A stretch of 34,710 nt of DNA from Halomicronema sp. CCY15110 (lineage in GTDB: Bacteria > Cyanobacteriota > Cyanobacteriia > Phormidesmidales > Phormidesmidaceae), in NCBI RefSeq assembly GCF_016888165.1, contig NZ_JACSWC010000249.1, positions 1-34,710 on the forward strand. The letters are read 5' to 3'. The notes beneath the pieces were generated by a model. It had not been told where the DNA came from and did no database searches. It was given only the letters and a program-made list of their open reading frames with translations. The first letter of the stretch is position 1, and every line of letters begins with the position of its first letter. Shown one piece after another: positions 7,157-9,135 of the stretch. Made by a program: the position numbers and the translations under genes.

Positions 7157-8374
7157 TTACGCTTCGAGACAGTCCAGGATGAGTTTAGGCGTCAGCTTGT
7201 TTTTGAACCAGACGACTGTCGCGGGGACATCCGTCGTTTTGACTCCGGCCTTCTCTAGATTCAAGCGTTCAGAAACGGCCAGGATGAGATTTGTAGTTTC
7301 CGCTTTGCGGACTTGAGCAAACTTTTTGCGCAGATATTCTGGTCGCCAATAGCCGACGATTTCTAGCAGGTAGGTGCGGCCATCAGGGTGAACGAGCCGA
7401 AAGTCAGGAATCATGACGCTGCCAGGGATGGGGAGTAAATCAACTTCGCGTTCGAGTTGCCAGGGGGTCTTTTGGTGGGGCCAGCGATTGGCGAACGACT
7501 CTTCCAACATGCTGTCGTAGGGCTTGCCTGGCGGATAGTGGGAGACGAGTCCGCAGTCGGCCTCTAGGGAAAAGCGGCGCTCTTTCATTTGCTGGGTGTG
7601 GCGATCGCGCATCACCAGCGTCGCCGTCAGATGCCACTTAGTGACGTGTAAAATCGCGGGAATCAGTTTCGCCATATCCAACCCATAGCGCGTGCTGGGC
7701 TTGAAGAGACTGGTCGGCCCATCAATCTCGATGGTGAAGCCTTGGTCGGCATCGCCTTCGATGTAGGCCATCAGGCGAAACAGCTTGAGATAGCGAAACA
7801 GCAGTTTGTATTCTCCCGGATCGTTGCGATAAGCCTGGAGTTTTACCTGGGTGGCCTTGTAGAAAATACCCTGCACTTGGGACAGGTTGTAGCGGTGCAG
7901 CAACGCTTCGGGCGTCGGCGCTTCAAAGGCGGTGAGAATGTGGTTCTCTTTCAAATCGGCGTACAGCCCCTGGCGGATTTCATCGGGGACGACCTCCCGT
8001 TCCAGTTCTTGGCTGAGCTGGTCGGCCAGGGTTTGCAGGTGAGTTTGGGTAGCATCGGGACTGGGAATGGCGCGACTGGCTAAGGCAAACGCCCGTGCGC
8101 GCAGCATGGGCGGTTCCAGGGGGCTCACGGGCTCAAAGGTGCTGAAGCTCGATCGCAAAATGTGAGCCAGTCCCCGCTTGATGCGATAGTCCGTATCCTC
8201 GCCTTCAAGCACTTGCAGTTGCTGGTTGAGCTGTCCCTGGGGTGTGCCCTGGTGCGTTTGAAAGAGAGCGATTAGGTCAGCGGCGATCGCCACCCACTCG
8301 GTTTTGATGGGCAACCGCTTGGGCTGAATGGACTCCCCCCAATATCGGTGGATCAGTAAGTCGGAAGGTAACGT
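7157..8374 (-). CDS. DUF790 family protein (Bax1-like nuclease), apparent ACG start
   Basis: A DUF790 protein, the family of archaeal Bax1, a nuclease that partners the XPB helicase in DNA repair. The C-terminal part has a PD-(D/E)XK-like pattern (PDF followed by LEIVGYW), consistent with nuclease activity. The first conventional start is a TTG at 8314, but the same frame stays open for another 20 codons of clear family homology: LPSDLLIHRYWGESIQPKR. Where the family has its initial Met the codon is ACG (8374-8372), with a perfect AGGAG ribosome binding site seven bases upstream and no ATG, GTG or TTG before the next upstream stop. Either translation starts at ACG, or an ATG has mutated. From ACG it is 405 residues. 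The XPB-like helicase gene often paired with this family is not adjacent. Confidence 0.8.
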   Translation of the reverse strand, partial: TLPSDLLIHRYWGESIQPKRLPIKTEWVAIAADLIALFQTHQGTPQGQLNQQLQVLEGEDTDYRIKRGLAHILRSSFSTFEPVSPLEPPMLRARAFALASRAIPSPDATQTHLQTLADQLSQELEREVVPDEIRQGLYADLKENHILTAFEAPTPEALLHRYNLSQVQGIFYKATQVKLQAYRNDPGEYKLLFRYLKLFRLMAYIEGDADQGFTIEIDGPTSLFKPSTRYGLDMAKLIPAILHVTKWHLTATLVMRDRHTQQMKERRFSLEADCGLVSHYPPGKPYDSMLEESFANRWPHQKTPWQLEREVDLLPIPGSVMIPDFRLVHPDGRTYLLEIVGYWRPEYLRKKFAQVRKAETTNLILAVSERLNLEKAGVKTTDVPATVVWFKNKLTPKLILDCLEA

Positions 8375-8517
8375 GGGTTGGCTCCTGGTTGCGCGAAAAC
8401 GGTGGGATCAGAGCATTGAGCCGCTGCCGGTTGTTGCCTTGAGCGCTTCAATGATCACCCGGTCAACGGGCCGTTTAGACTATGAGGTGGCCCGTTGTGA
8501 CAGATTGTAGACGTGAT

Positions 8518-9135
8518 ATGCCCCAGGTTGACTTTGCCGAGTTGGTGGAACAAGTGCGGACGGGCGTGGCGCTGGCGAGTTTTCCCACTGATACGGTGCC
8601 CGCATTGGCGGCCCGCCCCGATCAAGGCGATCGCATTTACGCCACCAAAGAACGCCCCTCTGACAAGCCCCTCATCCTGATGGGGGCCACATTGGACGAC
8701 CTGCTGCCCTACGTTAAGGGTACAGACGCCGAAATTGCGGTGTGGCGGCAGATGACTGAAATATACTGGCCTGGCGCATTGACCTTGGTGCTGCCCGCCA
8801 GCGATCGCCTGCCGCCTCAAATGAATCCGCTGCAAACAGGCACCCTTGGCATTCGCGTCCCTGATCACCCACTAGCGCGTTACATTCTCAGTCAGACCGG
8901 GCCGCTCGCAACCACCAGTGTGAATCGTTCTGGTCAATCCCCACTGGAGGATATGGCTGACATTGCGACCCAGTTTCCAGAGTTAGTCTTGCTGTCTGAG
9001 GCGGCGATCGCGGCAATCAAAGCCAAAATTGGCGACTTCGCCATGACTGCTTCGGGGGTGCCGTCTACTGTGGTGCGTTGGCAACCTGACGGGTGGGAAG
9101 TTTTGCGCCAAGGCTCAGTGCAAATTCCTGAGTAG
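8518..9135 (+). CDS. tsaC: L-threonylcarbamoyladenylate synthase (Sua5/YrdC/TsaC family)
   Basis: Uses L-threonine, bicarbonate and ATP to make threonylcarbamoyl-AMP, the first step of the universal t6A37 modification of ANN-decoding tRNAs. The YrdC domain fills the 205-residue protein: the nucleotide pocket TDTVPALAARPD, the KERPSDKPL motif (normally K.R....P) and VNRSGQSP with PGALTLVLPA are all recognisable. It lacks the extra Sua5 C-terminal domain, so it is the short TsaC type. The ATG at 8518 is preferred to one at 8482 because conserved sequence begins directly after it. The 107-base gap to the divergent DUF790 gene holds both promoters. Confidence 0.9.
   Translation: MPQVDFAELVEQVRTGVALASFPTDTVPALAARPDQGDRIYATKERPSDKPLILMGATLDDLLPYVKGTDAEIAVWRQMTEIYWPGALTLVLPASDRLPPQMNPLQTGTLGIRVPDHPLARYILSQTGPLATTSVNRSGQSPLEDMADIATQFPELVLLSEAAIAAIKAKIGDFAMTASGVPSTVVRWQPDGWEVLRQGSVQIPE

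Follow-up and report, generated by a model that had tools for sequence, protein, structure and literature searches.

Conserved AUU and AUA start codons are already established in bacteria. The E. coli chromosomal gene pcnB, which begins with AUU, is said to be limited by inefficient initiation. For infC, which encodes IF3 (AUU or AUA), and for the Staphylococcus aureus genes ccpN (AUA) and cvfC1 (AUU), one report describes conserved non-canonical starts with strong or extended Shine-Dalgarno motifs, and the S. aureus codons were shown there to lower initiation (PMC13009471). A survey covering 61,358 AUG starts inferred to be ancestral lists switches to GUG, UUG, CUG and a single AUU, with ACG unmentioned in the text (PMC5622118). 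A putative ACG start does occur in the tape-measure gene of mycobacteriophage Corndog, where relatives have ATG; peptides were found from the next residue onward and the authors left translational bypassing open (PMC4351075). Chloroplasts, too, have organelle genes of cyanobacterial origin with ACG where the start codon stands (PMC9845219). Our search of the open-licence literature yielded the Corndog gene as the bacterial-world precedent for ACG and otherwise cases from plant organelles. It revealed no ACG start conserved in a chromosomal gene, a weak negative as most subscription journals lie outside such a search, and on this footing a conserved chromosomal ACG start appears to be new.

Here we analyse a DUF790/Bax1-like nuclease gene of the cyanobacterium Halomicronema sp. 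CCY15110, situated in a 34,710 nucleotide contig (NZ_JACSWC010000249.1), hereafter called the window. Our preferred reading, which we hold with good confidence, is that an ACG is the true, long-conserved start of this gene across most of an order of Leptolyngbya-like cyanobacteria; that confidence includes the mechanism, whereas the purpose is held more loosely.

The gene lies on the minus strand of the window, in a genome of 6.1 Mb, and in its proposed full extent runs from ACG to stop at 7157-8374. The proposed start codon ACG (8374-8372, minus strand) is followed by LPSDLLIHRYWGESIQPKR and directly by a DUF790 protein of 404 residues. This protein matches Pfam profile PF05626 with 506 bits, the cut-off being 28.8, over positions 2-386 of 387. 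The first conventional in-frame start is a TTG at codon 21 (8314-8312, minus strand), without a Shine-Dalgarno motif and not kept as a start among relatives. The 20 codons that precede it, ACG included, had been described in a sequence-only reading as still encoding family-typical sequence, and this is borne out by the profile alignment, which begins at profile position 2, immediately after ACG. That reading had also placed ACG at the position of the expected methionine with AGGAG seven bases ahead, which is indeed the arrangement found: the Shine-Dalgarno motif occupies 8386-8382 (minus strand) and the seven bases 8381-8375 separate it from ACG. It had further reported that the frame contains no ATG, GTG or TTG back to the upstream in-frame stop. 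This too is correct, as none occurs in frame between ACG and the TGA at 8410-8408 (minus strand), 12 codons upstream. On the plus strand a divergent neighbour of the Sua5/YrdC family occupies 8482-9135, so the nuclease gene has its own leader in the window. Signs of a pseudogene are absent from the window's gene, which sits in an open frame of 416 codons without internal stop, and change among the family orthologues is biased to synonymous sites, contrary to what a pseudogene or relaxed constraint would give.

Orthologues were collected from 63 family genomes; an order-level search returned the identical 63, so that the family equals the whole order in the collection used. DUF790 was found in 57 genomes and the start was readable in 56. 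Left out were G080, whose N-terminus lies off the contig, G054, whose start was not alignable, and six family genomes without a match; the draft assemblies G002, G021, G027 and G084 have internal stops or split matches and were retained for the start codon. The alignment with related DUF790 proteins that the sequence-only reading had proposed shows ACG to be typical of the family: it is present in 45 of the 56 orthologues and in 12 of 14 genera, namely g1 (6/6), g3, g4, g6, g7 (3), g8, g9, g10 (2), g11, g12 (20/22), g13 (7) and g14. ATG is tolerated in the other 11 members, which comprise all eight of g2, the one of g5 and two of the 22 of g12. In a sample of the class, DUF790 was detected in 135 of 194 genomes, with 115 matches outside the family, 77 of which were fetched from 30 families and 76 aligned at the start. 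These 76 have ATG (70) or GTG (6) and never ACG; three further outside loci have ATG (Spirulina, L084) and TTG (Poribacteria, L088 and L091), and loci of that further set which duplicate family genomes were counted only once. On a tree of 68 sequences, built by a quick method and with many weak branches, the contrast between ACG and ATG or GTG takes four changes, compatible with a single ancient gain of ACG at the family's base plus about three changes to ATG.

Codon 1 evolves differently from the remainder of the gene. Steps were counted on 52 full-length family orthologues. Bases 1, 2 and 3 of codon 1 changed 0, 3 and 0 times, respectively, base 2 being only C or T, whereas codons 2-20 (8315-8371 in the window, the conserved protein sequence omitted by a TTG start) together show 80, 32 and 277 changes, as is typical of translated sequence. 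At 49 fourfold sites of conserved residues the mean is 16.2 steps, with three or fewer at a single site, and the other threonine codons of the ACG genes are ACC (535), ACG (142), ACT (122) and ACA (54). Since fourfold sites are fast and only 142 of 853 other threonine codons are ACG, an ordinary internal threonine would not stay ACG. Elsewhere in this gene, twofold C/T sites (n = 42) changed a median of 10 times against three times at base 2 of codon 1, with four of the 42 changing as rarely as that base (three times or fewer). This suggests that C at base 2 is retained and that mutation to ATG is selected against. As a separate observation, codon 2 (8369-8371 in the window) reads TTA or CTA in 42 of the 45 ACG genes, compared with 26 of 76 outside the family and three of 11 family ATG genes, and the hexamer ACGYTA looks constrained beyond the start codon.

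The ACG is coupled to a strong Shine-Dalgarno motif, defined here as AGGA, GGAG or GAGG between -20 and -5. Such a motif precedes 43 of 45 ACG genes, two of 11 family ATG genes and eight of 76 genes outside the family; matches of at least five bases precede 36/45, 2/11 and 8/76. For the latter, Fisher tests give 8e-15 for ACG genes against outside genes and 2e-4 within the family, values that are nominal as the sequences are related. Both g12 ATG genes keep the motif and the nine other family ATG genes lack it. Among the ACG genes, that of G007 has no Shine-Dalgarno match of four bases and eight more have a match of four bases only. As a chance baseline, 800 kb of G001, a close relative, were examined, where internal ACG codons have an upstream five-base match in 95 of 1802 and 87 of 1563 cases; the combination of ACG and Shine-Dalgarno motif exceeds chance, judged by its recurrence, at the homologous position, in most family members. 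Against expectation, the predicted single-strand openness of the Shine-Dalgarno region is lower in ACG genes (0.37) than in the others (0.54-0.60), G-rich motifs being more prone to pairing. An alignment of the leaders of six genomes of the same genus shows good conservation only from the Shine-Dalgarno motif to codon 10. No Rfam family scored above cut-off at 8200-8700, the best below-threshold chance match having an E-value of 0.63. Translational coupling was considered and rejected: only seven of 56 family members (six ACG, one ATG) have a same-strand ORF of at least 80 codons whose end is no more than 30 bases from the start, most have none, and many have a divergent neighbour as in the window.

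The gene resembles infC, ccpN and cvfC1 in that a non-canonical codon is kept at the homologous start between species and in that a strong Shine-Dalgarno motif stands at normal spacing. Its motif enrichment parallels the extended motifs at the S. aureus AUA and AUU starts (PMC13009471) as well as the trend, given in the survey, that weaker start codons accompany stronger Shine-Dalgarno motifs (PMC5622118). It differs from the three genes in codon type: theirs are third-base changes from AUG, whereas ACG is a second-base change and thus not of the AUN type, for which reason we file it as a variant and not as a member of the infC/ccpN kind. It also encodes a nuclease rather than a translation factor or regulator, and the weakness of its start is a proposed one. 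E. coli pcnB is likewise a chromosomal gene with a weak start, but with AUU rather than ACG. The Corndog case concerns a phage gene in three phages and is not conserved across an order of bacteria, and many of the chloroplast ACG codons in plants are edited C-to-U to AUG, whereas the DUF790 codon is probably read unedited.

In the preferred reading, ordinary initiator tRNA (anticodon CAU) would read ACG with a mismatch at the middle base, and the first residue would be formyl-methionine. Owing to that mismatch, initiation should be inefficient, and it would be policed by IF3. The strong and well-spaced Shine-Dalgarno motif would keep the ribosome at ACG and offset part of the weakness, leaving a low but steady output. 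Selection seems to keep ACG over ATG because excess nuclease would be harmful or wasteful. That ribosomes initiate at ACG we consider highly probable, whereas its role as a selected brake on production is only somewhat favoured. The use of a rare ACG start, one of the two options that the sequence-only reading had offered, thus gains support from the family-wide conservation, the coding evolution after the codon and the Shine-Dalgarno motif; the initiation event itself we infer from these.

Several other explanations were weighed against this reading. Translation might start elsewhere, at a downstream ATG, GTG or TTG (here the TTG at 8314, which annotation software would pick) or in an upstream frame followed by frameshifting or bypassing. 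Upstream in-frame ATG, GTG or TTG codons before the stop do exist in 23 of 45 ACG members, and an ATG-, GTG- or TTG-started frame enters ACG from another frame in 26 of 45. Neither the alternative starts nor frameshifting nor an upstream extension offers a position common to the family, whereas ACG is common to it, and they were rejected on that ground. The first conventional downstream start varies from codon 6 to codon 49, three of 45 members having none within 80 codons; seven of 45 genomes (in g1, g3, g8, g12 and g13) have an in-frame stop two or three codons upstream of ACG; and in 19 of 45 neither other frame contains a candidate. Codons 2-20 moreover evolve as coding sequence. A start elsewhere is improbable in our estimation. 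In 15 of the 20 g12 ACG members an in-frame GTG lies three codons upstream, formed by the Shine-Dalgarno motif GGAGGTGAG (L036, L040-L043, L062, L063, L069, L070, L072, L075, L076, L094, L100 and L104). Automatic annotation would probably take this GTG as the start, but it is unlikely to serve as one in those genomes, since a GTG inside the motif leaves no spacing to it.

A recent ATG-to-ACG mutation that damaged the gene, which the sequence-only reading had put forward as its second option, or a sequencing error that mimics damage, has in its favour that a single transition separates the two codons and that ATG or GTG stands at this place in relatives outside the family. The identical ACG in 45 of 56 members from independent assemblies, the intact and conserved frame and the mere four changes on the tree contradict recent damage, and the same independently assembled genomes speak against a correction to ATG at read level; we regard this explanation as practically negligible. 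Editing of a genomic ACG to AUG in the RNA would take one C-to-U change, of the kind that acts on plant chloroplast ACG starts and is known from plant organelles. An edited AUG would have no need of a strong Shine-Dalgarno motif, which the ATG orthologues lack, and we know of no C-to-U start editing of such kind in cyanobacteria; editing is very improbable. The strongest competitor accepts ACG as the start and holds that history rather than selection has kept it, as a tolerated weak start of a gene that matters little. The some three changes to ATG, the persistence of the ATG lineages and the six of 63 genomes without a match are in keeping with it. Synonymous C/T changes are, however, about three times commoner in the same gene, and genes with ACG retain the Shine-Dalgarno motif, which most of those with ATG lack (43/45 versus 2/11), so that we rate maintenance by history as rather unlikely, though clearly ahead of the other alternatives.

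Archaeal Bax1 acts in complex with the XPB helicase, and in archaea the two genes form an adjacent pair. The window's protein shares its family with archaeal Bax1, of the XPB-Bax1 helicase-nuclease, by sequence and by whole-chain fold. Solved Bax1 structures match by sequence with E-values from 5.9e-31 to 1.3e-24, and a predicted model (mean pLDDT 86.6; 88-90 over the first 20 residues) aligns end to end with five archaeal Bax1 entries at Z 20.3-22.0 and rmsd 9.6-11.0, the next unrelated hit having Z 6.8. In 35 aligned sequences D324 and E338 are invariant, and we take these to be residues of a predicted PD-(D/E)XK nuclease site. The present protein is a bacterial form and differs from the archaeal arrangement in that XPB-like helicase genes are elsewhere in the genome. 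XPB-like helicase profile PF16203 has a match in 56 of 60 family genomes and, with E 3.5e-14, in the window's genome; in most family genomes these matches are frames of about 500 codons that lie apart from the nuclease locus (G000:C38:3323-3673 in the window's genome). The model N-terminus has a short helix at residues 4-6 and a beta-hairpin with strands at residues 9-12 and 15-18 (about 8350-8321 in the window), within codons 2-20. The N-terminal domain of A. fulgidus Bax1 opens with a beta-hairpin that contacts XPB, as described in PMC7293015, and on the evidence of the model a start at TTG 8314 would remove the N-terminal hairpin part. As gene finders allow ATG, GTG and TTG, and sometimes AUN, an ACG start shared across an order is invisible to annotation, and missing it would truncate the putative XPB-contacting N-terminus in databases. 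If the start is real, a middle-base mismatch joins the few weak starts known to be natural and under selection, and cyanobacteria offer a ready-made reporter of IF3 stringency, while ACG and ATG sister lineages would allow a clean comparison on why a repair nuclease stays scarce.

The scope of ACG starts was explored in the 800 kb of G001 already mentioned, about 14% of its 5.7 Mb, with 311 + 348 (659) coding-like ORFs. Upstream of the first conventional start, an ACG with at least five bases of Shine-Dalgarno match occurs five times, the DUF790 gene included. The other four were discarded: two have no coding-like upstream sequence, C2:359686 has a negative coding score and C2:59520 lies inside an IS110-type transposase frame (PF02371). 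DUF790 alone among the five combines coding-like upstream sequence with the lack of another explanation. Four-base matches add several weak candidates, one of which is an HTH protein behind GATC. On this portion of the genome, ACG starts are rare and not general in G001. The window's genome contains 43 tRNA matches, and those inspected with ARAGORN are ordinary except for one stretch without a call; ordinary genes for tRNA-Met (three, CAT) and tRNA-Thr are present, and among the inspected matches none was recognised as an initiator-like tRNA with anticodon CGU.

A further reading, which we offer tentatively and consider doubtful, extends the brake: the start would be an IF3-gated control of a repair nuclease, the first conserved chromosomal bacterial ACG start, fixed once at the base of the order, and by sensing initiation stringency it would link the state of translation to DNA-repair capacity. 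This same tentative reading includes a rearranged IF3 set in the lineage, where about half of the sampled genomes seem to have lost the usual IF3 and to keep a divergent copy that apparently starts with AUC, AUU or AUA. Of the 30 sampled genomes of the family, 13 carry the usual cyanobacterial type, 16 only the divergent one and one (G025) a fragment; the usual IF3 is present in 56 of 59 genomes of the class sample. The type of IF3 does not track the DUF790 codon among the sampled genera: ACG occurs with the usual IF3 (g1, g3, g6, g8 and g11) and without it (g4, g10, g12, g13 and g14), as does ATG (with it in g5, without it in g2). For this reason we treat IF3 as context and not as cause.

A non-canonical start of the infC type is a classic target of autocontrol by IF3, and a start of that kind seems to coexist with the ACG gene, again as context. 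The divergent IF3 of this and several other cyanobacterial families (loci L190-L204 and L317-L323; G000:C42:20830-21303 in the window's genome) has an apparent start of ATC at 19, ATT at two and ATA at one of 22 loci. These starts, which stand behind GAG-type motifs, were judged by homology and by the fact that a conventional start is usually absent from the vicinity, although a few loci have an upstream ATG, GTG or TTG. The usual IF3 has ATG at the expected place in all 11 loci parsed.
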